This document shows, piece by piece, positions 2,019 through 30,269 of a stretch of DNA of 30,415 bases. Each line of letters begins with the position of its first letter. The first letter of the stretch is position 1. Both the position numbers and the translations under genes were made by a program. The DNA lies in the IMG/VR virus record IMGVR_UViG_3300021961_000411, positions 1 to 30,415 of that record; one strand, written 5' to 3'. The notes beneath the pieces were generated by a model, which worked only from the letters and a program-made list of their open reading frames with translations, did no database searches and was not told the DNA's origin. Source of the stretch: a virus.

Positions 2019-3530
2019 TTACCAAGTAGCCCCACTTAATCTTTTCCAACCTATGTTATCCCTATAATAAAGGTAATTATCATCCCAAGTCACAGAACCA
2101 ATTTCACCGACAGTGGTGTCGGTTGTACCAGTTGGGGTAAAATTGTATGTTTTATATAAAACTAATTTGGGTACATATACTGTTTCGCTGGAAGTTCCCG
2201 TAATTGAGTACCCACCCAAGATAATGGAATGGTCAGCACTGAGTATTGATTGTTCACTCGCAACTATCGCCGAATTCTGTATACTTACTAAATTATCGTT
2301 ACCCCCTAAAATAATTGAGTCAAATAATGGGTCGGATGGGGTACCTCCGTTCATAACATTATTTCTACCGCCGATAATAGAACTACTATCCGTATCACCA
2401 GTTAAAATTAAATTTTGTTCCCCACCAAAAACAGTGGTTCTATTTCCTTGTGTAAAGTTAAACTCACCGACAACAAATGATGTTTGTCCTGAAGCAGTAC
2501 TACCAGAACCAAACGCCACGGAATAAGCACCTGCTGCTAAATTCCCGTCACCATGTGTGAATGACAGACCTCCTCTAGATTCAGAATTACCACCTGCATG
2601 TGAATTATTACCTGATGCAATTGAACCTTTATTTTCAGCATGTGAGTATTGACCTGAAGCCAATGACCCATCACCTTCTGCGTGGGAGAATTGCCCACTA
2701 GCAGTACTTGAACCTTCAGCATGTGAATAATCTCCGGTTGCCATAGAACCAGTTCCTTCAGCATGTGATGCATTTCCACCGGCAAACGTATTTAAACCTT
2801 CAGCATGTGAAGTAGAACCAGAAGCAATACTATTGGCTCCTTGAGCGTGTGAATATAAACCAATCGCAAATGTGCCGTCTCCGAAAGCAGAGGAATAGTT
2901 AGCAGTCGCCGATGCATTATTTCCAAACGCAAAAGATAAAGTTCCTTGCGCATCTGAACCTATTGATTGGACTCTATGGTAAAGAGTAATTTCATCATTA
3001 CATGCATGTATATTGTCAGTATATAAATCATTTATACAGTTACCTGAACCACCACTAAATGGTGTTGTCATACCCGTAATAGTAAATGTACCACCTGTAG
3101 TGTTAGTAAATGTAGCAGTTCCTCCCGTAGAGTTAACCGTACCTCCAGTGACAAATACTTCAGTACTACCTGTTGTAAATCCTGTTACACTAAACGTACC
3201 TCCTGTTGAATTTGTAAAGGTAGCATCTCCTGTACTATTATCGTAGGTACCACCCGTAACAAATACTTCAGTACTACCTGTTGTAAATCCTGTGACATCA
3301 AACGTACCTCCAATATTATTAGTGAAGGTCGCTGTTCCAATAGAATTATCGTAAGTTCCACCGGTAACAACCGTATTAGTTGAACCACTAAATAAAGGTA
3401 CCAATTGACTTAAAGTCGCTTTATAGGATGACCCATTCGCACTCTGTGAGGTGTCACCAGTTATTACAATGTGTATAAGGTCATTTAAACTCGCCCCACT
3501 TGCTAATGTCCTTGATGTTAAAGTTGCCAT
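2019..3530 (-). CDS. Tail fibre with YadA-head-like repeats (503 aa)
   Basis: Probable trimeric tail fibre. Residues 1-48 form a module (RTLASGASLNDL, then VITGDTSQ and GSSYKA) shared with the fibre at 7522-8904, probably the part that docks to the tail. Residues 51-158 are three tandem 36-residue repeats with the pattern VTGGTYDNS..ATFTN..GGTF.VTGFTTG. Residues from about 196 to 370 carry roughly 14-residue repeats of the kind ASG..SHAEG, the signature of the YadA head left-handed beta-roll, which trimerises. A C-terminal domain ends with GEIGSVTWDDNYLYYRD, a layout common at fibre tips. The gene follows a 95-residue SprB-like mini-protein and precedes another SprB-like adhesin. The start at 3530 follows an A/T-only leader. 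The receptor is unknown. The fibre call is strong from the repeats and context. Confidence 0.88.
   Translation of the reverse strand: MATLTSRTLASGASLNDLIHIVITGDTSQSANGSSYKATLSQLVPLFSGSTNTVVTGGTYDNSIGTATFTNNIGGTFDVTGFTTGSTEVFVTGGTYDNSTGDATFTNSTGGTFSVTGFTTGSTEVFVTGGTVNSTGGTATFTNTTGGTFTITGMTTPFSGGSGNCINDLYTDNIHACNDEITLYHRVQSIGSDAQGTLSFAFGNNASATANYSSAFGDGTFAIGLYSHAQGANSIASGSTSHAEGLNTFAGGNASHAEGTGSMATGDYSHAEGSSTASGQFSHAEGDGSLASGQYSHAENKGSIASGNNSHAGGNSESRGGLSFTHGDGNLAAGAYSVAFGSGSTASGQTSFVVGEFNFTQGNRTTVFGGEQNLILTGDTDSSSIIGGRNNVMNGGTPSDPLFDSIILGGNDNLVSIQNSAIVASEQSILSADHSIILGGYSITGTSSETVYVPKLVLYKTYNFTPTGTTDTTVGEIGSVTWDDNYLYYRDNIGWKRLSGATW
3057..3380 (-). repeat. Three tandem 108-bp (36-residue) repeats within fibre gene
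   Basis: Three copies with a period of 108 bases encode 36-residue units. A 35-base stretch is identical between copies at 3151-3185 and 3259-3293, so at least two copies duplicated recently or are being homogenised. Copy number could change by recombination. Confidence 0.85.
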
Positions 3531-3554: not shown

Positions 3555-3842
3555 TTATTCAAATTCGTATGGTATGTTGTCCATAAATTCAAAACAATCT
3601 CCGTCTTCAAACTGTTTATAGTAGCATTGTTCGTTACAATAGACACACCCGTTATCATCAATTATTTTAATAACATATGATGGATAAGTTTCAAATACCG
3701 CAGGTAATGTAAAACTATATGGTACTGTTGTTATCGTATCGATGTATTGACAAATAGCTCCTGTCGAACAATCATCACAAACCCATATATCATATGGTGA
3801 TGTTCCTGAGGTAATTGAATTTATGGTTACAAGTACTGACAT
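3555..3842 (-). CDS. Single-domain SprB-like mini-protein C (95 aa)
   Basis: A small protein that is essentially one SprB/Ig-like domain. It shows SGTSPYDIWVCDD near residue 13, a hydrophobic SFTLP strand in the middle and YVIKIIDDNGC near residue 60, matching the 'GGTPPY ... Y.V.V.D..GC' framework of SprB repeats. The last 25 residues are acidic and include paired cysteines. It is paralogous to the proteins at 8932-9216 and 9217-9504. It starts one base after the stop of the cysteine-rich Pro-Thr protein and is followed by a tail fibre, so it is probably translated together with them. It could be a small fibre adaptor, tip protein or decoration protein; which of these cannot be told from sequence. 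Confidence 0.85.
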   Translation of the reverse strand: MSVLVTINSITSGTSPYDIWVCDDCSTGAICQYIDTITTVPYSFTLPAVFETYPSYVIKIIDDNGCVYCNEQCYYKQFEDGDCFEFMDNIPYEFE

Positions 3843-3843
3843 A

Positions 3844-5442
3844 TTACTTACAATTTCTATTTACTGTACAATATTCTGTTATCATACCATCTTTAGCAAC
3901 ACTATAAATAAAGTTTCCGTATTGGATGTAATCTTCAACGATAGGTCTTGTTAATCCGCTATCAGAGAACACATACACACCAGTTGTTAATGTTGTTATT
4001 AGATTTGAGGTATAGAATGTTAGACCTTTTCCAAAGTCCGTTATTTGACAAATAGGACAATTCAAGGAGAACCCTCCTTTACCGTCCCAAGTTTTAAATG
4101 ATGAAGCTGGTGTACTCACAGTTAAACAATCAACACAATCAGTGTAAGTCGTAGCAGTAGTTGCCGTAAACTCGTTTATGTTAGCAACCACAAATCCTGA
4201 TGGTGCTACGTAATTTATATAATTTCCAACATACGTGTAACAATCACCACTTGTTGTTTTTAATAATTGACCTACAGACAAGTTGTTTGGTGGGTAAGCT
4301 GTTTGTGTAATCATACTATTAGAAGTACACGAAGTGAAGACAAACAAAGTACCAAACGCATATGTTGGTGTTGGAGTTGGTGTAGGGGTAGGTGTCGGAG
4401 TCGGTGTTGGAGTTGCTGTAGGTGTTGGTGTTGGTGTAACACAAAGTACCGAACAACTTCCTGTATATGCCGTTATAATGTATTGTACATAAGCATTTGC
4501 ACTACCGTTACTATTTTGTATATATGTTGCACATACAGTATTTCCATTTATAATACCATAAATCGTTGTACCTGTTGTTGTTACTGTAGTGGCACTTGTT
4601 CCTGAAATATATAATGGACCACTAATGTAGTACATTTCACCTGTGTTACAATCCCTTAATTCTTTAATATTACCACACTCAAAGAAGCCATTATCAACAA
4701 CAAATGTCACCGTATCCGCCGATGTAGTAATTGATGGTGTAGGTGTCGGAGTTGGGGTCGGTGTAGGTGTTGGAGTAGGCGTTACAGTATCTATTGTAAT
4801 ATTAGCGGTAAACCCACTACAAATGTTTGCCGTTGGTGTTGGTGTAGGGGTTGGGGTAGGTGTTGGAGTAGGGGTTGGTGTTGGAGTAGGTGTTGTTATA
4901 TCACATTCCAATAAAACATCAAAATCTAAAGATGAACATGGGTCTAAAGGTGGTGTTGGTGTTGAACAACTACCCGTGTACATTATTGTTTCATCTAAAT
5001 CAGGACATAATGATGATGTTGGATTTGAACCAAAGAATAGACAACTACCACCTAAAGTTGCAGATAAACACCAAAATGTTCCATTATAATAAATAAATCC
5101 CGCGTTACCCGTACCTCCTGACCAATAAGGATAACTATTATAACCACCTATTATTTGGTAATTTCCACTATATCCGCTATAGGTCGAATTATTGATGTCA
5201 ATACATAATGTACTTGAGCAACAGTCTAAACAGGATGGGTCGGTACATCCTGTTACCCCTTGTGCATTACCATCAAAACTAATGGTAGATGCGGTAACAC
5301 CTGTTATTATTGTATAACAACCATCAGGTAAATTAGAATCACCACTAACTGAGAATACTCCGCCAGGTGTTGAACTAAATCCCCAACTTGTTGCACTATA
5401 TACAATATTGTAACAACAACTACTTAAAATTACATCTGCCAT
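3844..5442 (-). CDS. Cysteine-rich virion protein with three Pro-Thr tracts (532 aa)
   Basis: A mosaic, probably surface-exposed protein. Domains in order: cysteine module A at 1-75 (DGCYTIITG, then [13 protein letters not shown]); a YP..W domain at about 80-160; a Pro-Thr tract at 184-204; a short spacer; a second tract at 221-237; cysteine module B at about 240-335 ending [10 protein letters not shown]; a third tract at 336-360; cysteine module C at about 366-440 (GDCYTYVG, then TYTDCVDCL); and a C-terminal domain with CPIC and YCTVNRNC. I count 28 cysteines in 532 residues, unusual for a cytoplasmically assembled protein and suggestive of disulfides or bound metal after release. It shares modules with the protein at 414-2012. 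It lies directly downstream of the two glycosyltransferases. No known catalytic motif was seen. The role as appendage or adhesin is inference from context and repeats. Confidence 0.85.
4364..4437 (-). repeat. Pro-Thr tract DNA repeat 1
   Basis: A degenerate hexamer repeat (GGNGTN on the plus strand, CCNACN on the coding strand) encodes about 24 residues of alternating Pro and Thr, with one Ala in place of Thr. Third positions are mixed throughout, so it is not a simple perfect microsatellite. Confidence 0.9.
4734..4783 (-). repeat. Pro-Thr tract DNA repeat 2
   Basis: The same degenerate CCNACN hexamer repeat encodes about 16 residues of alternating Pro-Thr. Only a 16-residue spacer separates it from the next tract. 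Confidence 0.9.
4832..4896 (-). repeat. Pro-Thr tract DNA repeat 3
   Basis: A degenerate CCNACN hexamer repeat encodes about 21 residues of alternating Pro-Thr directly after the LLECD segment of the cysteine-rich protein. Confidence 0.9.
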
Positions 5443-5482: not shown

Positions 5483-6307
5483 TTATAAATCTAAATCTAT
5501 GTCTCCAGGTTCATAATTGTAAAAATGTTTGTATAAATGTATAAAAGCTACATCAGGTTGCTCTTCCATTGGTACACTCCAACCTGTTTTATCGAACCAA
5601 TTTCCTTGATTTTTACTATCGTATTGTGCCCAATCATTCCAAATACTGCTGGTATACCCCGCATGTTGCATTATAAATGATAAACTAGCATCAGACCATT
5701 CAATAGGTCTTGTATCTAATTGTTGTATTTTTTCCCAATCAATTTCATCTAATCGGTTGTAAGCATCAATAAATGCCTCTCTTCTAAAAATTGTTCCCCC
5801 ACAACCTCCATAACTTTGGAGTGAGCCAAGGTGAGACCAATGGTTTCTTGATTCGTCCGTTACGTTAAATCTATCTTTTAAGTATTGATAAAGTCCGTTC
5901 GTATAAGCAGGTCCATTAGCCCCTGCTATGTCATGTTTTGGTGGTTTTGTTATTTCCATTTTACACCATACATCGTCTTCATAGTGAATAACCCAATCAA
6001 CATCTTTTAATGTTGTGGTACAAGCATCATAAATTCTTTTTAACCAAGCCAAATTACTTTCAAGACCTACGACAGGTCTACCAGAGTGTCTTAAATTTTG
6101 ACCTAATACATCTGTTCTTTTATAAACACAGTTAAATTTTTCCGCAACCGGTTTTAAAATATCTGAACCATCTTCATATAACGCAACAGGTATACTAGGA
6201 TAAATTTTTCTTAATTGTTCTAAAGCTTTATAACAGGCAACTAGTTTATATCCTGATTGATAAAATGCACCTATATTCATAATAAATAATCGTTTCTTTG
6301 CGTCCAT
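5483..6307 (-). CDS. GT-A-fold glycosyltransferase (274 aa)
   Basis: Probable nucleotide-sugar-dependent glycosyltransferase. The N-terminus (KRLFIMNIGAFYQSG) and the following PVALYEDGSD look like the first strands of a GT-A Rossmann-like core. WVIHYEDDVW places an acidic E-D-D at 110-112, where the metal- and sugar-nucleotide-binding DxD motif of GT-A enzymes sits. GGCGGTIFRREAF (about 167-179) resembles an acceptor-side loop, and a His near 257 (FIHLYKH) could be the C-terminal metal ligand. I cannot assign a CAZy family. The ATG at 6307 overlaps the preceding glycosyltransferase by 31 bases. An in-frame ATG at 6280 overlaps its stop as ATGA and would remove nine residues; I kept the longer form because KRLFIM looks like part of strand 1. 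Lying among adhesin genes, it may decorate virion proteins; substrate unknown. Confidence 0.82.
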   Translation of the reverse strand: MDAKKRLFIMNIGAFYQSGYKLVACYKALEQLRKIYPSIPVALYEDGSDILKPVAEKFNCVYKRTDVLGQNLRHSGRPVVGLESNLAWLKRIYDACTTTLKDVDWVIHYEDDVWCKMEITKPPKHDIAGANGPAYTNGLYQYLKDRFNVTDESRNHWSHLGSLQSYGGCGGTIFRREAFIDAYNRLDEIDWEKIQQLDTRPIEWSDASLSFIMQHAGYTSSIWNDWAQYDSKNQGNWFDKTGWSVPMEEQPDVAFIHLYKHFYNYEPGDIDLDL

Positions 6308-7473
6308 TCGCCATTTATGTCGTTAACCCAATAAACCCATTTACGTGGTTTTTCGTAAGCCTCAATTCTTATATTTAATTTTTCTTGGTACGTTGTTAAA
6401 TCTTGTCTGTAAATAACTTCACCACTTTTATCTTCAACACCTATATAAATAAACTTGAAATTTTCAGTATATGGTATTTCTAATTCTAAATCATATACTT
6501 CTTTTTGTCTTAAATACCATTCTGTTTCATCGTTTATTGGTGGATTAACTCCTTTAATTGTATTCGGGTGTAACATTCTTTCTTTAAAACTGATACCAGC
6601 ATATAATTCATAATCGTGGTGGGTTCTTACATTACCAAGACCGTAGATACCTAAATCAATATTGTTATCTTCTTCTTGTAACATATGTCTCAATCTTCTT
6701 TTTGAGTCATTGTCCATTTCCCACCAAGGTTTTTCAACAACACCTGTACTTAAATTGTCCGTATTAAAGTCGGTCCAATGTTTTGTTCTACCTTCTCTTG
6801 TATATTCATGCCATACAACAGTTTTATGTGGGTGAAATAAATCATAACCTAATGTAAATGAACGAATTGACAAACTAATTTCATCTCCAGCAAAATAGAT
6901 GTTAGGGTCATACTTATACTCTTCACAATGTTTACCAATCGTAAAAAAGAAATGTCCACTAACAAATCTTGCGGGAATTGGTTTATCTAATGTTTGCCAA
7001 TTTTCAATTGTGTGTGGTCTAAAAAGAATTGTTCCTCCTGGTGTGAAGTTTGATGCAACCATTTTATATGGTTCAACATTTAATAATTTATTATCACTTG
7101 GTCTATACATACCTGCATATGATGTAATGATTGGTTTTTCTGACCCTGTCATTTTCATCATTTCAATAAGTTCTTCATCCCAATTATTTAAAAACCTATG
7201 GTGTGAATCTAATTGTAAGGTGTATTCTTCCCCATCCCATAATTTTTGGATTTCTGAACGAGCCCAACATAGTCCTTTACTCTTTGACCAATGGTAATCT
7301 AATATTTTAAATCTTGGGTCATTTGCAAATTCTTCCATTGATTCATTTTCATCACGTTGCCAACAAATACCAAATGTTAAATTTTCAGGGTATTTAGCGT
7401 TTGCAATACAATCTCTTATGGTTGGTAAAAGTTCGGGGTCACGGTAAGATGCGATTTGAACAAATATTTTCAT
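6277..7473 (-). CDS. GlcNAc-transferase-like glycosyltransferase, Skp1-GnT type (398 aa)
   Basis: Probable GT-A glycosyltransferase of the family that includes the Skp1 hydroxyproline GlcNAc-transferase (Pfam Glycosyltransferase (GlcNAc), CAZy GT60). Visible hallmarks: the opening MKIFVQIASYRDPELLPTI; LQLDSHHRF with D89-S-H91 in the DxD position; a Gly-rich FTPGGTILFRP near 143-153; and FAGDEISLSIRSFTLGYDLF at about 195-213, very typical of this family, followed by H-E-Y. Residues from about 325 to 398 form an extra beta-rich segment with several Tyr/Trp, possibly an acceptor-binding domain. Characterised relatives transfer GlcNAc to hydroxyproline in eukaryotes; for this phage protein, sugar and acceptor are unknown. 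It overlaps the next glycosyltransferase and lies between two fibre cassettes rich in Pro-Thr tracts. The family call is confident, the substrate is not. Confidence 0.88.
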   Translation of the reverse strand: MKIFVQIASYRDPELLPTIRDCIANAKYPENLTFGICWQRDENESMEEFANDPRFKILDYHWSKSKGLCWARSEIQKLWDGEEYTLQLDSHHRFLNNWDEELIEMMKMTGSEKPIITSYAGMYRPSDNKLLNVEPYKMVASNFTPGGTILFRPHTIENWQTLDKPIPARFVSGHFFFTIGKHCEEYKYDPNIYFAGDEISLSIRSFTLGYDLFHPHKTVVWHEYTREGRTKHWTDFNTDNLSTGVVEKPWWEMDNDSKRRLRHMLQEEDNNIDLGIYGLGNVRTHHDYELYAGISFKERMLHPNTIKGVNPPINDETEWYLRQKEVYDLELEIPYTENFKFIYIGVEDKSGEVIYRQDLTTYQEKLNIRIEAYEKPRKWVYWVNDINGEWTQRNDYLL

Positions 7474-7521: not shown

Positions 7522-8904
7522 TTAAAATATTTTGTTCAGAACAAAAATATCACTATATATAGAGTTTGCAGCATTAGTACTACCCCACTCCACGGTAATA
7601 TCTAAAGTATTACTAACAGTTGTGTCGAAAGTAGTATTATTAACGGTATTAAAAGAAAAACCTTCTACATTACCAGTACTTAGTTTTGTGTAGTGAAATG
7701 CACCTAATGATACAATTGACGCAACTCCTGACCCTCCAATTTGTCGTATAGTAAAATTAATCGACATAGTCCAAACATCATTACTAACTATAGGTAAAGT
7801 TTGAGGCCCAGTATCAAGTAAAATAACAGAACCTGATTTTACTCTCACTTGTATAGTTTCATTATTTGCGGCATTTAAAACACCCGCAATGTCCGCTCTA
7901 AAACTATCACCAATAGTAAAATTATTTGAAGGTACACTAAGTGTACCAATACCACCGTCAATAATACTAGTTTCAGTAGTTGTGGCACTTACGGTTACAC
8001 TATTTCCTGTTTGAGAAAATAATCCGTATACGGTTGGTCCAGGAATTTGTTTAATTTTTACGTCTCCTGTTGAGGAATCTCTTGTTAAGTAATTAGCACT
8101 TAAACTTGTATCTGTGGTTGGTGTTGATGAAATATTCACTGTAGATGCGGTAAAATCATTTTGGATTATCGCATTTCCATTAACATCTAATTTTTCTGTT
8201 GGGGTCTCTGTTCCAAAACCCACATATCCTCTTGTTGCTCCTGAACCAACAATCATTATATCTGCAGTTGTTCCATTTGCATCTTGACCTGCATAAAACT
8301 TAATATAATCTTCAGTTCCTGTTCCTTGACGGTTCATTATGTTCAAACCATTTAATTCGTTTGAGGCATATAAAATACCATCTCCTACTTGACCATAACC
8401 GGGTCTTGTTGCGTTGTCCCAACTTCTTATCGCCAATTGTAATGTTGCTATTGGTTTTGTAAGATAAGGTGGAATAGTTACTTGAAATCTTGGTAGGTCT
8501 GTTGAACCTGACATTTCTAAAAATCCTCCTGTAGACCCTGTAAATGTTAATCTACCTTGACCCGCTCTAATGTCTAACGGCATTTCAGGCGTATCAGTTC
8601 CTAAACCAATTCTTATATTTGTTTGGTCTATTGTAATCCCTGATGTAATACCAAAAAAAGTATTACCCGTTACAGTTCCACCTGATAGTGGTAGAAATTG
8701 TCCATCACCTGCACCTGACGTACCACTTGTTCCTGAAGAACCGGTAGTACCTGTTATTGCATTGGCAATTTGTTGGATTGTTGCTTTGTATGAAGAACCT
8801 GCAACATTTTGAGATGTGTCGCCGGTAATGACGACATGTACAAAGTCATTTAATGTCACTCCTGTTGCTAATGTTCTATCAGTTAATCTTTCGTAAATTG
8901 CCAT
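7522..8904 (-). CDS. Tail fibre with shared N-terminal module (460 aa)
   Basis: Probable tail fibre. Residues 1-46 (RTLATGVTLNDF, VITGDTSQ, GSSYKA) are a clear paralogue of the start of the fibre at 2019-3530, presumably the tail-docking part. A short Gly-Ser-Thr collagen-like stretch follows (TGSSGTSGTSGAG). Then comes LPLSGGTVTGNTFFG, a common fibre-shaft motif. Two copies of an 'IGLGTDTPEMPLDI' / 'GFGTETPTEKLDV' motif come next, as seen before tip domains in many long fibres. I saw no C-terminal S74 chaperone-peptidase signature, so the beta-rich last 160 residues are probably the receptor-binding head. It follows two SprB-like mini-proteins and precedes the glycosyltransferases. The start follows an A/T-rich leader with TATTTATA. 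The receptor is unknown. Confidence 0.87.
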   Translation of the reverse strand: MAIYERLTDRTLATGVTLNDFVHVVITGDTSQNVAGSSYKATIQQIANAITGTTGSSGTSGTSGAGDGQFLPLSGGTVTGNTFFGITSGITIDQTNIRIGLGTDTPEMPLDIRAGQGRLTFTGSTGGFLEMSGSTDLPRFQVTIPPYLTKPIATLQLAIRSWDNATRPGYGQVGDGILYASNELNGLNIMNRQGTGTEDYIKFYAGQDANGTTADIMIVGSGATRGYVGFGTETPTEKLDVNGNAIIQNDFTASTVNISSTPTTDTSLSANYLTRDSSTGDVKIKQIPGPTVYGLFSQTGNSVTVSATTTETSIIDGGIGTLSVPSNNFTIGDSFRADIAGVLNAANNETIQVRVKSGSVILLDTGPQTLPIVSNDVWTMSINFTIRQIGGSGVASIVSLGAFHYTKLSTGNVEGFSFNTVNNTTFDTTVSNTLDITVEWGSTNAANSIYSDIFVLNKIF

Positions 8905-8931: not shown

Positions 8932-9216
8932 TTATTGGAAAACGTAATTGTTATCATCCATAAAAATTACAACTACATTATTTTGATATATATAATTTAT
9001 ACAATCCAAAAGATATAATTTTTCACAGATTGCACCATCTATAATTTTAAGATAAAACGACGTTTCACTAGGAAAAAAATTATCAGTATCAATAATTACT
9101 GATGGTGGAAATGTAGTAACTCCACTAACAAAAAAACATCCGATGTTATTTGAGTCGCATATGTAAATATTATATGGACTTGTACCGCTAGTAACTCCTG
9201 TAATTTCTATTAACAT
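8932..9216 (-). CDS. Single-domain SprB-like mini-protein B (94 aa)
   Basis: One SprB/Ig-like domain with SGTSPYNIYICD near residue 10, a central hydrophobic strand, and FYLKIIDGAIC near 54-64, the position where SprB repeats have 'Y.V.V.D..GC'. A hydrophobic then acidic C-terminus ends MDDNNYVFQ. It is paralogous to the proteins at 9217-9504 and 3555-3842 and closest to the latter in its opening motif. Its ATG directly follows the TAG stop of mini-protein A with no intervening base, which points to coupled translation. It may be a small appendage, adaptor or tip protein of the fibre encoded next. Function unknown. Confidence 0.85.
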   Translation of the reverse strand: MLIEITGVTSGTSPYNIYICDSNNIGCFFVSGVTTFPPSVIIDTDNFFPSETSFYLKIIDGAICEKLYLLDCINYIYQNNVVVIFMDDNNYVFQ

Positions 9217-9504
9217 CTATATCCAAACTAATCTATCACCACTTTCTGTAGTTATTATGAGTCCTGTCTCAGTTAATATAAAGAATGTATCGAATGGACA
9301 ATAAACCAGTTTAAATGTCATACATCCCGTACTATCAACAACTTTTATAAGTAATACTTGCGCTGTTGAGAAAAATGAATTTAATGTGAATGTACCACCT
9401 GAAGGCCCAAGTAAAAAACAATTGTTCATATATTGGTCACACACATAGAACTCATAAGGAGGTGTTCCTCCTGTCTCCCCCGATATGATTAGTTGTGATG
9501 GCAC
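9217..9504 (-). CDS. Single-domain SprB-like mini-protein A (95 aa), GTG start
   Basis: One SprB/Ig-like domain. GETGGTPPYEFYVCD at about 8-22 is nearly canonical for a SprB repeat, and LLIKVVDSTGCM at about 51-62 provides the closing strand. The C-terminus ILTETGLIITTESGD looks like a beta-hairpin. The start codon at 9504-9502 is GTG, two bases after the TAA stop of the 942-residue SprB protein, and no in-frame ATG precedes the domain, so GTG is the best start. It is the first of two adjacent mini-proteins upstream of a fibre. Because the domain also occurs seven times in the gene just upstream, it may have arisen by excision of one repeat. Function unknown. Confidence 0.84.
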   Translation of the reverse strand: MPSQLIISGETGGTPPYEFYVCDQYMNNCFLLGPSGGTFTLNSFFSTAQVLLIKVVDSTGCMTFKLVYCPFDTFFILTETGLIITTESGDRLVWI

Positions 9505-9506
9505 GA

Positions 9507-12335
9507 TTAACTAATAAATAAATTAAATGTTGATGCCGATGTGAATGTAGTATTCGCCGAATAAATTTGTTGGGTTTGTGAATTAGCTTGAAAATCAAGA
9601 TTTGCACCACCATATGAAAAGTCACTACTAGTTCCACTATAAATTGCACTAAACCCACCTTGTTCAACTTTAATATATCCACCCGAAGTGTTAATATTAC
9701 TAAATATAATATCATTATCATTACCTAAGGAATCATAACGATTAAATTTGAATACCATAGTCTGAGCTCCACAAATAGGGTCAATACCAAAAAAATCAGG
9801 ATTATATGTTGATGCACTTAAACAACCAATTCCTCGACCGGGTATTGTTTGGAAGAATGAGCCACCAGTAGGAACCGATGGTAATGGTGAAGGTGCTCCA
9901 TCTGCAGTATATAATAAATAACTACCAGCATTCAACGGAGCTAAAGTAGGTGTCGGTGTCGGAGTTGCTGTAGGTGTAGGAGTTGCTGTAGGAGTCGGTG
10001 TTGCCGTAGGTGTTGGTGTAGGTGTTGGTGTAGGGAATAAATATCCCGAACACGTAACATCATAAACAATCTCCAATCCTAATGTAAAATCGGCATCAGC
10101 CAAAGGGTCAACATCCCCATCGCAATTTGAAAGTATTGTTAAAGTATTATTTAATAAATCTATTTGGTATGATTGTATTTCAGTTATACCTGAAAGTATC
10201 GATTCAATTGTTGATTGCCACAAAGTATCCTGTGGAACATCATTTAGCGTAGTTGCAGTATAAAATGTTTCAGTAAACGCACTACCATTAACTATAACTT
10301 CACAAGTGAAAACTGCGGAATTAAATGTACAGTTAGTATAACCAGAAGTTATATCTAAATAACCTTCATTTAACATTTCTAACATACCTCTTTGGTTACC
10401 TGTAGTTGTTGTAAACGTATTTGTACAAAGATTAAATGTTTGGTAATTATTAATAAGGTTTCCTGTACAATTTAATGTAAAGTATTGTGTGTCAGTACAA
10501 CCAGACGCGTCTGTAATTGTAACATCATATAAACCTGATGAAAGATTACTAATTGATGAACCAGTACTACCATTTGACCATAAATAGCTAAATGGTGGTT
10601 CACCATCATAAATTACAACCGATGCACTACCATTATTACCTGTGGTACAGTTTGTGGTATTAATACCCGTTAATAAACTACCACCACTACTAATAGTAAA
10701 TCCTGTTGAAACGGAACATCCGTCATTATCAGTAACGGTAATAGTATAAGAACCGGCAGATAAGTTATTATAAGTTGTAGACGTTAAAGTAGTATTAAGT
10801 ATTTGATTACCATTACTTAAAACATAGTTTAATGGTAAAGTATATCCTGTAGATAACAAAACATCTGCAGTTCCATTTGTTTGGCCACAAGTAGAACCTG
10901 TGGTCGATACATTAATTTGAAACTTTTCAGTAGAACTTATAGTTATAGTTTCTGTATATACACATTGAGTTCCGCTACCACTAATTGTTAGTAAATACGT
11001 GTCGTTTGCAAGATTATCAAATAAATAAGTTTGATTTTGTGAAACGTTTGTTTGAATTGTATTAGTACTTAAACCTGAAAGTGAATAAGTATAAAACGCA
11101 TTTGCACCCGCAATACTTACATCGATAGAACCATTAGTTATGTTACAAGATGAATTAGTTACGACTGTTCCAACAACACTAAATCCATTTGGTGGTAATA
11201 CGTTTCCGTTAACAACTATTTCACAAAAATTAGCATCTCTTACCAAAACGTTATAGTTTCCAGAACTTAAACCTGTTAATGTAAACGTGTCAGATAATGT
11301 AAACCCAACTTGACTGGAAGTTGCAGAAAAATATAAAGGCTGAGAACCTCCACTTATAGTGAAAGTTAATTCCCCGTCAGATGAAAAACACGTAGGTTGG
11401 ACCGCAGTTAAAAATGATAATCCTAATGGGTCCGCCACTCCAACCGTTTGTGACTTTGTAGTTTCACAACCAAGTGAGTCAGTAACAGTACAAGAATAAA
11501 TTCCTTGTGTTAATCCTGTAATAAGTTGTGTTGTTTCTCCATTACTCCACAAATATGTGTATGGACCATTACCTGTAATACCCGTTACCGCTAATTTACC
11601 CCAGTTAACGGTGCAATTTGAAGTATTAACAACCCAAAAACCAAAATCAACTGACGTACTCGCACTTATAACTGCATTTTCAGTATTAGCGCTAGCACCT
11701 CCATTATCAATAATAGTTGCATAGTATATACCATCACTTAAACTATCATAATCAAATGGTAATGTGTTTGTTGTATCAACACTTTGTAAAACACCATCTT
11801 TATAAAATAGTATCGTATAAGGTGAACCTGTTGTAGTTCCTGTTACTTGTAAAAAACCGTTAGTGTCTCCACAAGTTGTTCCACTAGCGTTTATAATATT
11901 AGCTTCAAAACAAGGTGTAACCGCAACATTGATGTATAATTCGTTATTTTGTAATCCTAATGTATCATTAAGTCTAAATACGTAGGTTCCTCCAGTTAAT
12001 CCCGTAAATGTAATTTGACCAAATGATGTCTGCGCAGATATACTACCAGGTGTGACGTTATCAATCGTATAAGGAGGTGTACCACCAAAAGGTGAAAAAA
12101 TTACTGAACCTGTTGCTGCCGAACAAACACCCGACACTATAAAACTATATCCTAATGGTCCTTGATTACAGTTTTCAGTACAAGTTTGTCCTGTTGCAAT
12201 ATAAACACCAGCAGATGAACCAGTATAAGTTTCATCTAAACATATACTTTCACCAACTGACGCACCATATCTTGGTATACCACAACAATCAATATAACTA
12301 TAAACACCATTCGTTAATCCTGAAACACAAGCCAT
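9507..12335 (-). CDS. Multi-SprB-repeat virion adhesin with Pro-Thr linker (942 aa)
   Basis: Probable long surface adhesin of the virion. A Cys-containing N-terminal segment (YSYIDCCGI, TCTENCNQG) comes first. It is followed by about seven SprB/Ig-like repeats at roughly 70-140, 150-222, 235-298, 310-385, 395-465, 475-548 and 556-622. Repeats 3 and 7 are textbook (GPYTYLWSNGETT ... GIYSCTVTDSLGC; PPFSYLWSNGSTG ... GLYDVTITDASGC). A module at about 672-763 is also present in the 1120-residue baseplate protein, in both cases directly before a Pro-Thr tract (here 768-800). A unique C-terminal domain of about 140 residues ends the protein. It starts 13 bases after the 1120-residue gene. SprB repeats are known from the secreted gliding adhesin of Flavobacterium; use in phage particles is inference from neighbours. 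No secretion signal was seen. Confidence 0.9.
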   Translation of the reverse strand: MACVSGLTNGVYSYIDCCGIPRYGASVGESICLDETYTGSSAGVYIATGQTCTENCNQGPLGYSFIVSGVCSAATGSVIFSPFGGTPPYTIDNVTPGSISAQTSFGQITFTGLTGGTYVFRLNDTLGLQNNELYINVAVTPCFEANIINASGTTCGDTNGFLQVTGTTTGSPYTILFYKDGVLQSVDTTNTLPFDYDSLSDGIYYATIIDNGGASANTENAVISASTSVDFGFWVVNTSNCTVNWGKLAVTGITGNGPYTYLWSNGETTQLITGLTQGIYSCTVTDSLGCETTKSQTVGVADPLGLSFLTAVQPTCFSSDGELTFTISGGSQPLYFSATSSQVGFTLSDTFTLTGLSSGNYNVLVRDANFCEIVVNGNVLPPNGFSVVGTVVTNSSCNITNGSIDVSIAGANAFYTYSLSGLSTNTIQTNVSQNQTYLFDNLANDTYLLTISGSGTQCVYTETITISSTEKFQINVSTTGSTCGQTNGTADVLLSTGYTLPLNYVLSNGNQILNTTLTSTTYNNLSAGSYTITVTDNDGCSVSTGFTISSGGSLLTGINTTNCTTGNNGSASVVIYDGEPPFSYLWSNGSTGSSISNLSSGLYDVTITDASGCTDTQYFTLNCTGNLINNYQTFNLCTNTFTTTTGNQRGMLEMLNEGYLDITSGYTNCTFNSAVFTCEVIVNGSAFTETFYTATTLNDVPQDTLWQSTIESILSGITEIQSYQIDLLNNTLTILSNCDGDVDPLADADFTLGLEIVYDVTCSGYLFPTPTPTPTPTATPTPTATPTPTATPTPTPTLAPLNAGSYLLYTADGAPSPLPSVPTGGSFFQTIPGRGIGCLSASTYNPDFFGIDPICGAQTMVFKFNRYDSLGNDNDIIFSNINTSGGYIKVEQGGFSAIYSGTSSDFSYGGANLDFQANSQTQQIYSANTTFTSASTFNLFIS
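9946..10034 (-). repeat. Pro-Thr tract DNA repeat 4
   Basis: A degenerate CCNACN hexamer repeat encodes about 30 residues of Pro-Thr. Ala replaces Thr at three spots, in a higher-order pattern (T-P-T-P-T-A) repeated about three times. It is the longest tract in the window. Confidence 0.9.
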
Positions 12336-12348
12336 TCTTTAATTAATT

Positions 12349-15300
12349 TTAACAAATTACATATCCACTTCCAGTGTCTTGTATGTTTATGTACAGAGCA
12401 AAGTTTGTACTTGGTATAGTATAAGTGTAGTAAGAAATTAATCCACAATAACCCGTATATATACCTGAGTTATCCCCAAGTCCGAAAGTCACATTATTAC
12501 CCGAAGTATTTAAAATACCAAATTCAAGTATATCGCCAGATATAAACGAATTAAGGTATGTGTTATACAATTGAGTTAATGAAGGTTTGTTTCCTACAGT
12601 TTGGTTATTAATATATACCCAAGAACCACCATTTATTCTAAATACAAAGCTTACATTATTAGGTGTTGATGTAATTGGTGCTCCGAAATTGAATATAGCA
12701 TTGACGTATGATGGTGTTGCGGTTGGCGTAGGTGTCGGAGTCGGTGTAGGTGTAGGTGTCGGAGTAGCAGAAGACGGTGTACAATTAATGTCAATATCTA
12801 ACCCAATGTTTAATGATAAAGTACTATTCGTAAAATCATCGTAACATGTTGAATTACTCACAATTAATGTATTACCCGCAAAATAATAGTTTAGTCCGTG
12901 TTGGTATAATTCTTCTAACTCTGTATCTAATGCGTTTAATAATTGTGTTTGGGTTGGGTAATCATTTATACCATATCCTGTGTAGAATTGAGATTGTACT
13001 AACACTTGATTATCCAAACGGCAATCTACATACCAATTAGATACTATACTATTTAAATCACACTGATTTTGTGTATATCCACTAGTACTAAGTTGAGACG
13101 CCAATAGTGTCTGTAAAACATTTGCACCATCTAAAATCAAACTACACTGAAGTGTTTGGTCTATACAATCATAGGCGAATGGTTGTCCTGTGTACTTACA
13201 AGGAACACAATCAACAGGTATAAATTGACACCCTCTTTGTCTTCTCCAAACATATTTTTGTCTATGAAAAATAGAGTTCTCCATTTTTTGACCTGTTAAC
13301 CATAATGTGGTTCCAGGCACCACCTGTTCTAAAAGTCTTTGCCAATAATCACCAACACCTAATGTAAAATCAATCATTTTCTGATATGTGTATTCATTGG
13401 ACGGTATACCTACCGTTTGTTGGGATTGTAAGTATTTCCAATAGATAGATTGTAAAGTTGGATATCCTCCGGTTTTACCATCAAAAATTGTTTGTCGGTT
13501 TCTTACATTAATAAAGTTGTTGTAGAATGTTTGTGCAAACTCAAAGAATGTTTTTTCTTTTGGTTTTGGATTTATTATTGTCCAATCAATGTCACCAGGG
13601 TATGGGTAAGGCGCAGTAAGTCCTGAATTAGGTATTGGGTAGTTATATTTCACAGACATATCCCATACATCATATGTGATACCTTGACCCATATTCATAT
13701 ACAACTCTATGTTTTTAGAGTTGATGACTAATTTATCATCCGTAACCGAATAATCAACCCCATTAAAGTTAGAATTATTTTTTCTAGTTCCAACTTGGTT
13801 TACAGGCCAAGATTTTTGATTATCTGAAACTCTTCTTAAAGTATACCCAACATTCATATCAGGGAACTTTCTAAGAGTATTCATATACTCTTGTCCAAAA
13901 TTAAATGGAGCTACTTCAGTAATTAAATAAGGGTTAGACCCTGTGAATTGTGAATTTGCAACATCAACAGTTTCAACTGAGCGGTGTTTAGGGCTTTTTT
14001 CGAACCAACCCGCACCTTTTTGGAAGAAGTTGTCTTGTGTTTGTTGTGGACTTTTTGGGTATCCGTCAGAATCAATACCGTAATCATCTAAAGTAGTATT
14101 GATTAATTTAATTACCCCACTACTTGTATAACCAGTATATGTAACACCTTGAATGCTAAAAATGTTATTATTATCTAAACTTGGTGTTGTTTCAAACTTA
14201 GTACCTCCTGATATTTGAGCGTACTGTTGGTTGAATTTATCCACATTGATTTTTGTGTCCGCAACATAGACTATCTCATTAAATTCGACTAACGCATCAG
14301 GTGCCCCGATAAATCTCATTACATATTCTAAAGATTGTCTTGTACCCTTTGTTTTAAACATGTAAGCCGCGTTTAATATTAAATTTCTATAATATTGATA
14401 ATTAAGTTCGGTAGGTGTCGGTGTGTTTTTTTGTCCTTGATAAATTTGTTGTGGTGTTGGATTAAATACCGCAGTTAAAAAATCTTCGTTGGTTACTGGT
14501 GAAATGTTAGGATTAATACCTAATGTTTGAGCTAAATTAGATAGTAATTGTGAAGGTATATCATCACCAACTTGATAGTTAACTGAATTAATATAAGCTA
14601 AACTATCTATAAACTTTTTAACCTCATCAAAACTTCTACCATAGATTTGTAATACTTTTTCTATTTTTTGGTCAGTAGTATCGAATTCTTTAAATGCGCC
14701 AGTTATTAAAAATCTACTAATAAGATTTGTTTTATATTCATCTAATTTTTCAGCAATTAGTTGAAGTTGGTCTAGATATTTGTTGAATAATGAACTTGTA
14801 ATATCTAAGTTCCAAAATTTATTAATTGGCCAACTTACCTTTCGGTTATATAAAGTTAATACACCATTATCGTCGTAATCAGGGTATGAAAATTTCGCAG
14901 TATACTTTGGTGCACTATTTTGGTTCAAAAGAAACTTTTCAACTTCATCAAATGCGTCGTTAAAAATTTCCTGTGTTTTTGTATTATTAGGTTTTAATAT
15001 TAAAGAAGCGGTAGTTGCACTAACTCCACTAAAAGGGTTCCCTTGTACTGTTATAGTTACCGTACCACCAGATAAACTCTGAGTTGGTGTGAAATCTGTT
15101 AATGGGAACTCTACATTTAATGTATCATAATATAATGAATAACTTTCGAACTCAGATGTTAAAGCCCTAATTGGGTGTATAGGAAATGGTTTTACTTCTA
15201 TATTTCTTTTTGCGTTTACAGAAAAATCAACTTCGAATGGATTTCTAAACAACGCAGTATTCATATCAAATGTTGTTTCATCTTCAACACTATCGTATGT

Positions 15301-15711
15301 TATATTAAATGCGGTGTCACCAACAAACAATCCTGATTGATGTTGAGCGATAACTTCAATAGCCGCTGGGAAATTGTTTATTATTTTAATCGCGGATGCT
15401 GATAATCTTTTTGCTAAAGAACCATATAATGAAAAACTTGTTACTTCAGATAAATCATAATTAGGATAAACTTTAAAGTTTTTTTCAATTATTCTTTTAG
15501 CTTGTTCAATGTTATCAATTTTAAGATTTTCTAAAGTATAACCTTGTGAAAATACCCCCGTATCAAATTTTCTATTTGATTTTTCATATATTGCGGATGT
15601 AAATTGAAAATTTCCTTGCGTAAGTCCCCCTCCATCGGTAATTTGAACCCCGACAATATTGTCTGCGAAAGTATTTGTTCCAATAGGTGGAAAGAAAATT
15701 TTATTTGCCAT
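12349..15711 (-). CDS. Large baseplate/tail protein with tail-protein-I-like core and C-terminal adhesin-type tail (1120 aa)
   Basis: Probable baseplate structural protein. The first 870 residues look like a genuine tail protein, with mixed alpha/beta content and few cysteines. The segment YMFKTKGTRQSLEYVMRFIG around K455-G456-T457 resembles the 'KGT ... G' core of P2-type tail protein I, the wedge partner of J/gp6. A Cys-rich stretch (GCQFIPVDCVPCKY) precedes a module at about 885-975 shared with the 942-residue SprB protein, then a Pro-Thr tract (about 982-1001) and a beta-rich C-terminal domain of about 120 residues. So the adhesin-type tail appears grafted on a baseplate body, perhaps to anchor or display fibres. 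Its ATG overlaps the stop of the 302-residue gene by one base (TAATG). The structural call is firm; the wedge-I assignment is tentative. Confidence 0.82.
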   Translation of the reverse strand: MANKIFFPPIGTNTFADNIVGVQITDGGGLTQGNFQFTSAIYEKSNRKFDTGVFSQGYTLENLKIDNIEQAKRIIEKNFKVYPNYDLSEVTSFSLYGSLAKRLSASAIKIINNFPAAIEVIAQHQSGLFVGDTAFNITYDSVEDETTFDMNTALFRNPFEVDFSVNAKRNIEVKPFPIHPIRALTSEFESYSLYYDTLNVEFPLTDFTPTQSLSGGTVTITVQGNPFSGVSATTASLILKPNNTKTQEIFNDAFDEVEKFLLNQNSAPKYTAKFSYPDYDDNGVLTLYNRKVSWPINKFWNLDITSSLFNKYLDQLQLIAEKLDEYKTNLISRFLITGAFKEFDTTDQKIEKVLQIYGRSFDEVKKFIDSLAYINSVNYQVGDDIPSQLLSNLAQTLGINPNISPVTNEDFLTAVFNPTPQQIYQGQKNTPTPTELNYQYYRNLILNAAYMFKTKGTRQSLEYVMRFIGAPDALVEFNEIVYVADTKINVDKFNQQYAQISGGTKFETTPSLDNNNIFSIQGVTYTGYTSSGVIKLINTTLDDYGIDSDGYPKSPQQTQDNFFQKGAGWFEKSPKHRSVETVDVANSQFTGSNPYLITEVAPFNFGQEYMNTLRKFPDMNVGYTLRRVSDNQKSWPVNQVGTRKNNSNFNGVDYSVTDDKLVINSKNIELYMNMGQGITYDVWDMSVKYNYPIPNSGLTAPYPYPGDIDWTIINPKPKEKTFFEFAQTFYNNFINVRNRQTIFDGKTGGYPTLQSIYWKYLQSQQTVGIPSNEYTYQKMIDFTLGVGDYWQRLLEQVVPGTTLWLTGQKMENSIFHRQKYVWRRQRGCQFIPVDCVPCKYTGQPFAYDCIDQTLQCSLILDGANVLQTLLASQLSTSGYTQNQCDLNSIVSNWYVDCRLDNQVLVQSQFYTGYGINDYPTQTQLLNALDTELEELYQHGLNYYFAGNTLIVSNSTCYDDFTNSTLSLNIGLDIDINCTPSSATPTPTPTPTPTPTPTATPSYVNAIFNFGAPITSTPNNVSFVFRINGGSWVYINNQTVGNKPSLTQLYNTYLNSFISGDILEFGILNTSGNNVTFGLGDNSGIYTGYCGLISYYTYTIPSTNFALYINIQDTGSGYVIC
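12712..12769 (-). repeat. Pro-Thr tract DNA repeat 5
   Basis: A degenerate CCNACN hexamer repeat encodes about 19 residues of Pro-Thr near the C-terminus of the 1120-residue protein, separating a shared module from a unique end domain. Confidence 0.9.
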
Positions 15712-27839: not shown

Positions 27840-30269
27840 TTAGGATGAACACCCAAAACAATCAAAGTCACTATTTTCAGGTTTTGGTGGTAGGTTCATA
27901 TCACTATAACTAACACTAGGTATTTCAACTTTAACTTTGGGTTGTTGTATTTTTGATACGTCAACCGCTAAGTGTTTTGCACCTGTTGAAATTGCTTTGG
28001 TTCTTACATAGTAACACAATGTTTTCAAACCTCTTTCCCAAGAGTGGAAGTGTGACGATGTGATTTTAGATAAAGTTGGGTTACCCATATAGATATTCAT
28101 TGACTGTGATTGGTCGATGAATGGCGCCCTATCCGCGGCCATATCAATTAGTTGTTTCTGCGAAATCTCCCAAATTGTTTTATACTTAGGAATTAAGTGT
28201 TCAATTCTTTTTACTTTTTTCAAATAGTTCTTGTCTTCAGGGTCCAAGTAATTGTTAAAGTTAATATTTTGAATTGACCCTTCGTTAAGGATAATTTCAT
28301 TTTTCAAATCTTCAGACCAAATACCAATTTTTTCAAAGTCGTTGATTAGGTATTTGTTTACTATCATAATCTCACCACCTACAACACGTCTGTTAAAGAT
28401 TGCTGAGTGCGCCGGTTCTGTCATTTCGTATGAACCTGTGATTTTTGCTGAAGATGCCACCGGCATTTGAGCTGTGAATAGTGAATTACAAACACCATAA
28501 TCGGATACGCTTTTCTTTAATTTGTTCCAATCCCACATTCCAGAAAGTTCCGTTTCATTAACATTCCACATATCGAATTGGAAAATCCCTTTAGACATAG
28601 GTGAATCTTTAAAAAATGAATATGGTTGATACTTACCGTCCATACATAATGCATTACTTTCTGTGATTGCCGCAAAATAGATAGTTTCAAAAATATTTTT
28701 ATTTAATTTTTTTGCTTCATCAGATGTGAAAGTGTAATCCATTAAATAAAATACGTCAGCCAAACCTTGTGTCCCAATAGCTATCGCCCTTTGTTCTAAT
28801 CCACCTCTACGTCCCTTTTCAGTTGAATAGTTGTTAATGTCAACGACTTTGTTTAACGACCTTACAACTTTACGTGTTTCTTCATATAATAAGTTGAAGT
28901 TGAATTCGCCATCTTTTACAAAGTTTTTCAATACCATAGATGATAAAGTACAAATAGCCGTAGTCTTCTCGTCGGTATATTGGTAAATCTCATTACACAA
29001 GTTAGATTGCTTAATTACCCCAATATTTTGGTGGTTAGTTTTTCTGTTTGCGTTGTCTTTAGAACATAAATAAGGAACACCTGTCTCTACTTGTGACTCA
29101 ACAATTTTAGTCCAAATGTCTTGTGCTTTAACTTTTTTACCTAGATTCATGCTAACTGCTGTGTTATACACTTCTTCATACTCTTCACCATAACATTCTT
29201 GTAATGGTTTCAATCCAGCCCTTTTAATATCGTTAGGACAGAACAAATACCAATCAGTATTATTTTTAACTGCCCTCATAAAATTATCAGGAATCCAAAG
29301 TGCCGTAAATAAATCACGAGCTCTTAGTTCTTCTGCCCCTGTGTTCTTTTTAATATCTAACAAATCAAAAATATCTTTATGCCAAGGTTCAAGATAGATA
29401 GCGGCACTACCCGGTCTACGACCTTGTTGATTAAAGAATCTAAGTGATTCGTTTACAATTTTTAAGTATTTTAAAAGTCCACCGGCATACCCACCTGAAG
29501 TTGAAATTCTACTTTCTTTGCTACGGATGTTTGACATTGAAAGTCCGATACCGGCAGCATCTGAAGAAAATGTTGAAATGTCTCTCAAAGTACCTAGTAA
29601 ACCTTCTCTTGAATCAGAATCGTTATAATGTAATACACAAGATGCCAATTGTGGAACTTTAGTTCCTGAATTAATCATAATAGGTGTTGCCTTAGATATA
29701 AGTTGATTAGATAAAGAATTGTAATATTCCTTAGCTTGTTCAAATGTTTCGGTAACCCACAATGCAACTCTCATATACATATGTTGTGGTCTTTCTATTA
29801 CTTGACCATTAGGTCTTTTTAATAGATACATTTCTTGTAATGACCTCCAAGCAAAATAATCAAAATTATAATCATTTTCGTGGTTAATAACTGAATCGAT
29901 ATTTTCTTTTCCGTACTCATTTATTTTAATCATCAAATCTTCATTAATGATACCATCATAATACAACACATCCATTGTCTCACAAAAACTATCATTAGTT
30001 TCTTTGTGATATGATGATATTGCAACTGATGATGCTAAACGTGAATAATCGTGATGACTACCGGTGTATGCTGCTGCAATCTCGTAAATCAATTTATCCA
30101 ACTCTTTAGTTGTGACTTTACCTTCGGTTGGTACCGAAGTAATTACTTTAATAAAGATTTCATCAGAATTAACATTTAATCCTTTGGCTGCTCTCTTTAC
30201 TCGGTTGTAAATTTTTTGTGGGTTAAATGCTACATTATCACCACTTCTTTTTGTTATTTTTAATGACAT
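27840..30269 (-). CDS. nrdA: Ribonucleoside-diphosphate reductase large subunit, class Ia (809 aa)
   Basis: Catalytic subunit that reduces ribonucleoside diphosphates to deoxyribonucleotides for phage DNA synthesis, working with NrdB. An ATP-cone lies at about 1-90 (KRSGDNVAFNPQKIYNRV, then VTTKELDKLIYEIA). The active site is intact: C211 (LASCVLHY) and C440 (AICTLSS) form the redox pair; N423, C425 and E427 sit in NLCNEI, with C425 the thiyl-radical residue; Y753-Y754 (CYYVRT) form the radical-transfer pair; and C804-F-G-C807 is the C-terminal thiol shuttle. The 15-residue spacing of C425 and C440 and the APFIDQSQSMNI block match eukaryote-type R1 rather than E. coli NrdA (23-residue spacing). 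Length is normal, with no sign of intein or split. It starts 10 bases after nrdB and ends at a strong terminator. Confidence 0.98.
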   Translation of the reverse strand: MSLKITKRSGDNVAFNPQKIYNRVKRAAKGLNVNSDEIFIKVITSVPTEGKVTTKELDKLIYEIAAAYTGSHHDYSRLASSVAISSYHKETNDSFCETMDVLYYDGIINEDLMIKINEYGKENIDSVINHENDYNFDYFAWRSLQEMYLLKRPNGQVIERPQHMYMRVALWVTETFEQAKEYYNSLSNQLISKATPIMINSGTKVPQLASCVLHYNDSDSREGLLGTLRDISTFSSDAAGIGLSMSNIRSKESRISTSGGYAGGLLKYLKIVNESLRFFNQQGRRPGSAAIYLEPWHKDIFDLLDIKKNTGAEELRARDLFTALWIPDNFMRAVKNNTDWYLFCPNDIKRAGLKPLQECYGEEYEEVYNTAVSMNLGKKVKAQDIWTKIVESQVETGVPYLCSKDNANRKTNHQNIGVIKQSNLCNEIYQYTDEKTTAICTLSSMVLKNFVKDGEFNFNLLYEETRKVVRSLNKVVDINNYSTEKGRRGGLEQRAIAIGTQGLADVFYLMDYTFTSDEAKKLNKNIFETIYFAAITESNALCMDGKYQPYSFFKDSPMSKGIFQFDMWNVNETELSGMWDWNKLKKSVSDYGVCNSLFTAQMPVASSAKITGSYEMTEPAHSAIFNRRVVGGEIMIVNKYLINDFEKIGIWSEDLKNEIILNEGSIQNINFNNYLDPEDKNYLKKVKRIEHLIPKYKTIWEISQKQLIDMAADRAPFIDQSQSMNIYMGNPTLSKITSSHFHSWERGLKTLCYYVRTKAISTGAKHLAVDVSKIQQPKVKVEIPSVSYSDMNLPPKPENSDFDCFGCSS

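Follow-up and report, generated by a model that had tools for sequence, protein, structure and literature searches.

A glycosyltransferase pair within a baseplate and fibre cluster

What do glycosyltransferases act upon when their genes lie among those for the baseplate and fibres of a phage? The question is raised by a virus record of 30,415 bases (IMG/VR record IMGVR_UViG_3300021961_000411, analysed over its full length and hereafter called the window), the main genes of which lie on the minus strand and encode, among others, gp25-like and Baseplate_J-like baseplate proteins, a YadA-head protein, SprB-repeat proteins and a ribonucleotide reductase. The interval 5483-7473 consists of two genes, for a GT60-type glycosyltransferase and a second enzyme (Table 1). 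A first-pass annotation, made from the sequence alone, had placed this pair between proteins with Pro-Thr tracts and suggested that the phage might glycosylate its own adhesins. The positions of the five tracts agree: three fall in the gene of the 532-aa protein, which is the next gene downstream of the pair, and one each in the genes of the 942-aa and 1120-aa proteins on the other flank. To judge from homology, predicted folds, recurrent gene linkage and the precedents discussed below, we favour with moderate confidence a phage-encoded mucin-type cassette that would O-glycosylate Pro-Thr linkers, on threonine, in the fibres that the same phage encodes.

The small repeated domains of the 532-aa protein are strung together by three Pro-Thr linkers, each with 8 to 10 repeats. 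The tracts are encoded by a mixture of synonymous codons (CCA/CCT/CCG and ACA/ACT/ACC/ACG), indicating that it is the protein sequence that is maintained and that simple DNA slippage is not the cause. The 460-aa protein is probably fibre-like, judging from its position and composition. Promoter and terminator scans gave signals no higher than in shuffles.

Several other features of the window were recorded. Three paralogous domains of 94-95 aa (3555-3842, 8932-9216 and 9217-9504) lie on both sides of the fibre and enzyme genes, and in two relatives (L003 and L007) one of these domains is fused to a Pro-Thr tract. The Pro-Thr fibre gene adjoins a region encoding YadA-type head repeats (2019-3530; PF05658, E 8.6e-16), and a ribonucleotide reductase large-subunit gene (27840-30269) adjoins the baseplate genes. 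SprB-like repeats (PF13573), elsewhere typical of Bacteroidota gliding adhesins, are encoded at 9507-12335 and 414-2012, which suggests, on sequence grounds, a Bacteroidota host.

Table 1. Genes and Pro-Thr tracts of the glycosyltransferase region.
Feature	Position	Strand	Remark
GT60-type (PF11397) glycosyltransferase, 398 aa	6277..7473	-	proposed initiating enzyme (alpha-HexNAc on Thr)
Second glycosyltransferase, 265 aa from ATG 6280 (ORF listed to 6307)	5483..6280	-	proposed elongating enzyme
532-aa Cys-rich bead-on-string protein, three Pro-Thr linkers	3844..5442	-	proposed main acceptor
Pro-Thr tract 1, (PT)10	4831..4890	-	inside 532-aa protein gene
Pro-Thr tract 2, (PT)7PS	4732..4779	-	inside 532-aa protein gene
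Pro-Thr tract 3, (PT)8	4363..4410	-	inside 532-aa protein gene
942-aa SprB-repeat protein, interrupted Pro-Thr tract (9946-10034)	9507..12335	-	possible further acceptor
1120-aa protein, (PT)7 tract (about 12721-12767)	12349..15711	-	possible further acceptor
460-aa Thr-rich protein, no tract	7522..8904	-	directly upstream of GT60

Predicted folds of the two enzymes

The GT60 hallmark motifs attributed to the 398-aa protein (ASYRDPELLPTI, LDSHHRF and GDEISLSIRSFTLGYDLF) were found exactly, and the protein matches PF11397 with an E-value of 4.6e-65 and 220.8 bits (cut-off 21) over profile positions 2-45 and 99-351 of 352, as well as the PHROG family phrog_24687, annotated as 'glycosyltransferase' (E 1.3e-105). 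Its AlphaFold model, built on an alignment of 31 phage and bacterial relatives, has a mean pLDDT of 94.2 and comprises a GT-A catalytic domain (about residues 1-320) followed by an all-beta C-terminal domain (about 320-398). The best 29 PDB rows for this model are all GT27 polypeptide GalNAc-transferases, with Z of 19.3-23.0 over about 270 residues, and the next unrelated enzyme follows at Z 17.9; Foldseek likewise ranks GT27 nearest. The structural alignments to GT27 end near residue 323, the predicted all-beta domain lying beyond.

The model contains the catalytic GT-A fold with a DxH metal motif (Z up to 23.0), and D89, S90 and H91 (DSH) are, together with H222, invariant across the 31 aligned relatives. 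In GalNAc-T2 the manganese ligands are DSH plus a later His, and we presume, from the motifs, that the GT60 relatives follow this GT27 pattern. A sequence search of the PDB, with the enzyme alone and with the 31-sequence profile, returned no relative and no GT27 chain, and the Pfam matches of the protein include no GT27 model, so that the likeness is one of fold and not of family membership. GT27 enzymes resemble the modelled GT60 protein in fold (Z about 23), in DSH and in having a C-terminal beta domain after the catalytic domain, a ricin-type beta-trefoil lectin in GT27 and a predicted all-beta domain in the phage protein, but show no detectable sequence similarity to it. As far as the model goes, the nearest solved folds leave the donor and the acceptor of the GT60 enzyme unfixed.

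Translation of the second enzyme probably starts at ATG 6280. This codon overlaps the stop of GT60 as ATGA and yields 265 aa, the same length as in the relatives of the second enzyme; given this overlap, the two enzymes are probably translated together. The ORF (5483-6307) has no match in Pfam, PHROG or phage records, and hhalign found no relation to other cassette enzymes. Its model, less certain than that of the GT60 enzyme (pLDDT 78.4), has a GT-A-type predicted fold. The top Foldseek matches are GT6 alpha-1,3-Gal/GalNAc transferases (E 6.5e-8), whereas by VIA Z the GT6 family ties with other GT-A families at 11-13.

Threonine or hydroxyproline as acceptor

The GT60 members include Skp1 Gnt1 and the pp-alpha-GlcNAcT of Trypanosoma cruzi (PMC6939170). 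The first-pass annotation had framed the phage enzyme after the Skp1 system, in which GlcNAc is attached to hydroxyproline; this framing is less well supported, the predicted fold being closest to GT27 and pointing to nothing specific to Skp1. Gnt1 shares the PF11397 domain with the phage enzyme but requires hydroxyproline made by a prolyl hydroxylase. The first-pass annotation had seen no such hydroxylase in the window. A P4H-type oxygenase, sought as the single family PF13640 in 50 long and possibly incomplete records, was found in five, all outside the window's clade, and in none of the 16 longer GT60-positive records of that clade, which include records of 292, 229 and 214 kb. On the absence of PF13640 from these 16 records, possibly incomplete as they are, the hydroxyproline route is probably not the one used in the clade.

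The T. cruzi enzyme provides the other precedent: it transfers alpha-GlcNAc onto Thr of KPPTTTTTTTTKPP, a Pro-flanked poly-Thr peptide (PMC3769586). The absence of PF13640 from the clade and this activity together make Thr the likelier acceptor, as the first-pass annotation had supposed. The T. cruzi and phage enzymes belong to the same CAZy/Pfam family, a comparison at the level of annotation, and the former takes Thr in Pro-flanked Thr runs as its acceptor; it is, however, a eukaryotic Golgi enzyme acting on mucins, whereas the phage protein has an additional all-beta C-terminal domain and a predicted function. Galactopyranose or galactofuranose can be added to the T. cruzi glycans, and a UDP-galactopyranose mutase is encoded in some phage cassettes (L014 and L099). 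In view of the closeness of the predicted fold to GT27, an enzyme of mucin type that initiates on Thr is the better model, and the biochemical picture should shift accordingly from Skp1-hydroxyproline to mucin-type Thr glycosylation.

Certain cassettes do recall the Skp1 pathway (Gnt1-PgtA-Glt1/AgtA-Gat1). GT60, GT2 cassettes occur in L018 (488-4260), L025, L036 and L038 (10001-13387), in an order resembling the sugars of the Skp1 glycan: L038 has GT60, GT2, GT11 and a further GT-A enzyme, and L018 has GT60, GT2, an unnamed gene and GT8, both reminiscent of the GlcNAc-Gal-Fuc-hexose assembly. The window, by comparison, has just GT60 and one GT-A enzyme.

Linkage of GT60 to Pro-Thr tracts across phages

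Is the neighbourhood of enzyme and tracts peculiar to this window? Among 55 viral loci retrieved through the enzyme, there are 36 in which a homologue of the 532-aa Pro-Thr protein comes next after GT60, with at most the second enzyme in between. Elsewhere (L027, L036, L051, L260 and L261) GT60 adjoins unrelated Pro-Thr proteins. A tract of five or more repeats lies within 10 kb of GT60 in 33 of the 75 phage loci left at a non-redundancy of 85%, whereas 120 random viral loci (1.07 Mb in all) yield none; these controls came from viral contigs of every kind, which are fragmentary, with no matching by the host or habitat of the phages. At 60% non-redundancy the count is 8/19. Under a broader P/T/S-rich criterion, 75/116 GT60 loci and 2/120 random loci are positive, the GT60 loci representing about twice the DNA.

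In the reverse direction, 50 contigs were sampled by a Pro-Thr tract alone and 50 by an arbitrary 14-mer; PF11397 exceeded its cut-off in nine of the former and none of the latter (length-adjusted p 0.006). GT2 is also richer in the Pro-Thr contigs (11/50 over cut-off, versus 4/50 controls), and the PF11397 excess may therefore partly reflect glycosyltransferase-rich aquatic phages. The linkage does not descend as one inherited gene block: a P/T/S-rich protein lies within 5 kb of 61 of 138 non-redundant GT60s, and on the tree of these 138 enzymes the P/T/S-rich label changes 27 times, at least 14 of which are forced by well-supported branches. Distance tests over whole records are individually weak (P 0.01-0.25, one 0.90), as many records are fragments and related; in one record of 203 kb, the longest-matching tract listed sits 142 kb from GT60.

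The co-occurrence of the enzyme family with Pro-Thr tracts proposed in the first-pass annotation thus holds across phages and extends into bacteria, and the idea of self-glycosylation is strengthened by the controls. The same annotation had reasoned that an enzyme found mostly in tract-less phages would refute it, and in a weak sense this is the case: a narrow majority of the non-redundant phage loci (42/75, some of them truncated) are free of tracts for 10 kb around GT60. Those phages must consequently have acceptors of another kind: either other Ser/Thr-rich fibres are modified there, or the family also modifies host glycans.

GT60 in bacteria and beside type VI secretion genes

Among loci from a bacterial collection, 13 of 59 have a P/T/S-rich protein near GT60, and the stretches around GT60, 0.67 Mb in all, contain 14 such proteins, whereas control DNA from seven of the same genomes (0.80 Mb) contains none. 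Some of these loci are probably phage contigs in MAGs, so that not all 13 are chromosomal, since crAss-like muzzle domains are present in L449 and L478; five others (L451, L454, L463, L470 and L477) come from contigs between 230 kb and 1.3 Mb long. The type VI secretion locus of Paraburkholderia ferrariae has the order TssA-GT60-Rhs-VgrG, with a VgrG whose C-terminus is a long Pro-Thr tail, and in this genome of 7.9 Mb matches to four Pro-Thr repeats occur only in that tail, 4 kb from GT60. In a Bacteroidia MAG of 5.3 Mb the sole four-repeat match lies 454 bases from GT60. Among the matches listed for Burkholderia dolosa and Paraburkholderia tuberum, no GT60-Pro-Thr link was found. Within Burkholderiaceae, type VI secretion VgrG genes with a long C-terminal Pro-Thr tail, close to GT60 and Rhs genes, are those of loci L463 (11075-13066), L470 and L477.

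An exchangeable glycan slot beside the fibre gene

Loci were also collected by a neutral anchor, a conserved downstream gene independent of both GT60 and the fibre, yielding 74 fibre-protein loci. GT60 accompanies fibre tracts of at least 10 repeats in total in 30 of 36 non-redundant loci, and tracts totalling fewer in 3 of 11 (p 0.001); in L083, one of the long-tract exceptions, GT60 lies just outside the fetched stretch. The slot before the Pro-Thr fibre gene is variable in content in the window's clade yet glycan-related in the loci read. It may hold GT60 alone or GT60 with the second enzyme; an HtrL_YibB protein together with a GT60 of roughly 43% identity; a GT34-like protein; a UDP-galactopyranose mutase and other enzymes; or, in four more of the long-tract exceptions, L069 (5203-5787), L070, L075 and L077, an opposite-strand GT29-like gene (sialyltransferase family) and no GT60. 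A constant fibre with swapped glycan genes is what would be expected if the cassette decorates something under changing selection.

Two further gene orders recur. A GT32-like gene and then a sulfotransferase gene come after GT60 both in a phage (L051, 9995-12437) and on a Verrucomicrobium chromosome (L442, 5998-8522), and a NodU-like carbamoyltransferase gene adjoins GT60 in jumbo phages (L058 and L059) and in Jiulongibacter (L454, 7235-8803).

The thing decorated might be the host: the cassette could modify surface glycans (LPS or capsule), for example to block superinfection, and adjoin the fibre genes because both evolve with the same receptor. Many relatives do lie in cassettes of several glycosyltransferases, as is typical where surface glycans are synthesised (GT2, GT11, GT8, GT32-like, UDP-galactopyranose mutase or sulfotransferase genes), and the 42 tract-less phage loci fit as well. 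We nevertheless regard this as unlikely, because it leaves unexplained both the repeated Pro-Thr linkage, VgrG tails of bacteria included, and a predicted fold nearest to the protein-modifying GT27; an unsystematic look at the window pair and the loci read, moreover, noticed no flippase, polymerase or membrane anchor.

A second alternative retains virion glycosylation but directs it to Ser/Thr-rich or globular fibre domains, the Pro-Thr tracts being passive linkers that mark modular fibres. Outside the tracts the neighbouring fibres contain 15-18% Thr and 9-13% Ser, and GT60 is retained beside fibre genes with short or absent tracts in L066, L102 and L127. Against this stand the association of GT60 presence with tract length among homologous fibre proteins, the bacterial VgrG, an otherwise ordinary spike that ties the enzyme to a C-terminal Pro-Thr tail, and the activity of the family precedent on a Pro-flanked Thr run; passive linkers therefore seem to us improbable, the more so than host glycans.

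Proposed modification of the fibre linkers

Under the favoured reading, glycosylation of Thr in the fibre linkers, the PF11397 enzyme would act in the host cytoplasm with a UDP-sugar donor (UDP-GlcNAc by family precedent) and place a first HexNAc, probably GlcNAc, onto Thr of the Pro-Thr linkers while the neighbouring fibre proteins are made, the chief acceptor being the 532-aa protein encoded just downstream. The second GT-A enzyme would then extend or decorate this sugar, a step that in relatives may fall to GT2, GT11, GT8, GT32-like, GT29-like, UDP-galactopyranose mutase or sulfotransferase genes. The outcome would be a virion fibre with a variable glycan coat, which might stiffen or protect the linkers or alter adsorption or antigenicity. 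The sequences themselves establish the family, the predicted fold, the gene order, the recurrent linkage to Pro-Thr tracts and the exchangeability of the glycan cassette, whereas we infer the donor sugar, the Thr acceptor, the presence of the fibre in the virion, the making of the glycan, the order of steps and the purpose of the glycan.

Glycosylation of phage virions has parallels. Freeman and colleagues are said (as cited in PMC12619734) to have described in 2023 that phage-encoded glycosyltransferases modify virion proteins of mycobacteriophages, the glycans of actinobacteriophages reportedly sitting at the C-termini of capsid and tail-tube proteins; to our knowledge, no link of this glycosylation to GT60 or to Pro-Thr fibre tracts has been described. 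Closer in sequence, ORF334 of Xanthomonas phage XacN1 is a full-length homologue, 38% identical to the GT60 of the window, and at least two glycoproteins in the XacN1 virion were reported by those who described its genome. By analogy, these glycoproteins may lend indirect support to fibre glycosylation. XacN1 differs from the window in having no Pro-Thr tract near the homologue and a carbamoyltransferase gene adjoining ORF334.

Such surroundings bear on a third alternative, that the enzymes glycosylate modified bases of the phage DNA as a defence against restriction. Phage glycosyltransferases are by default annotated for hypermodification of DNA, the role also cited for the four core glycosyltransferases in a 2025 survey of large aquatic phages, and the XacN1 and RAS14 homologues lie near a DNA polymerase or RNase H gene, beside a carbamoyltransferase. 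In the window and its clade, by contrast, the pair lies inside a baseplate and fibre cluster with no recognised base-modifying enzyme; members of the same family occur on bacterial chromosomes beside P/T/S-rich surface-type proteins, and also beside a NodU-like carbamoyltransferase; and the predicted fold is nearest to polypeptide-modifying enzymes. A DNA target is accordingly the least probable of the alternatives, and in our view very improbable.

Implications for phage fibres and related machines

Virion glycosylation and GT60 are each already known; what is unusual is the pairing of enzyme and substrate, and no open literature treating GT60 together with phage was found. The VgrG tails suggest that one modification may be common to phage tails and the spikes of type VI secretion. 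More tentatively, and with somewhat less than even confidence, prokaryotes and phages may share a mucin-type system in which GT60 acts on Thr of Pro-Thr stretches in fibres and VgrG spikes, and from which the eukaryotic GT60 enzymes may descend; if this is true, phage-tail-like machines have mucin-like glycosylated linkers in common.

For annotators, the pairing offers an alternative to the default DNA-glucosylation label on phage glycosyltransferases. Few phages have been shown to glycosylate their virions, and the sites that receive the sugar are difficult to foresee; with an enzyme and substrate that are regularly paired, glycosylated fibres could be predicted at the sequence level in abundant aquatic phages. 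Such a pairing would also supply compact bacterial or phage enzymes for the synthesis of mucin-like glycopeptides, and would account for the persistence of long Pro-Thr tracts in the adhesins of phages.
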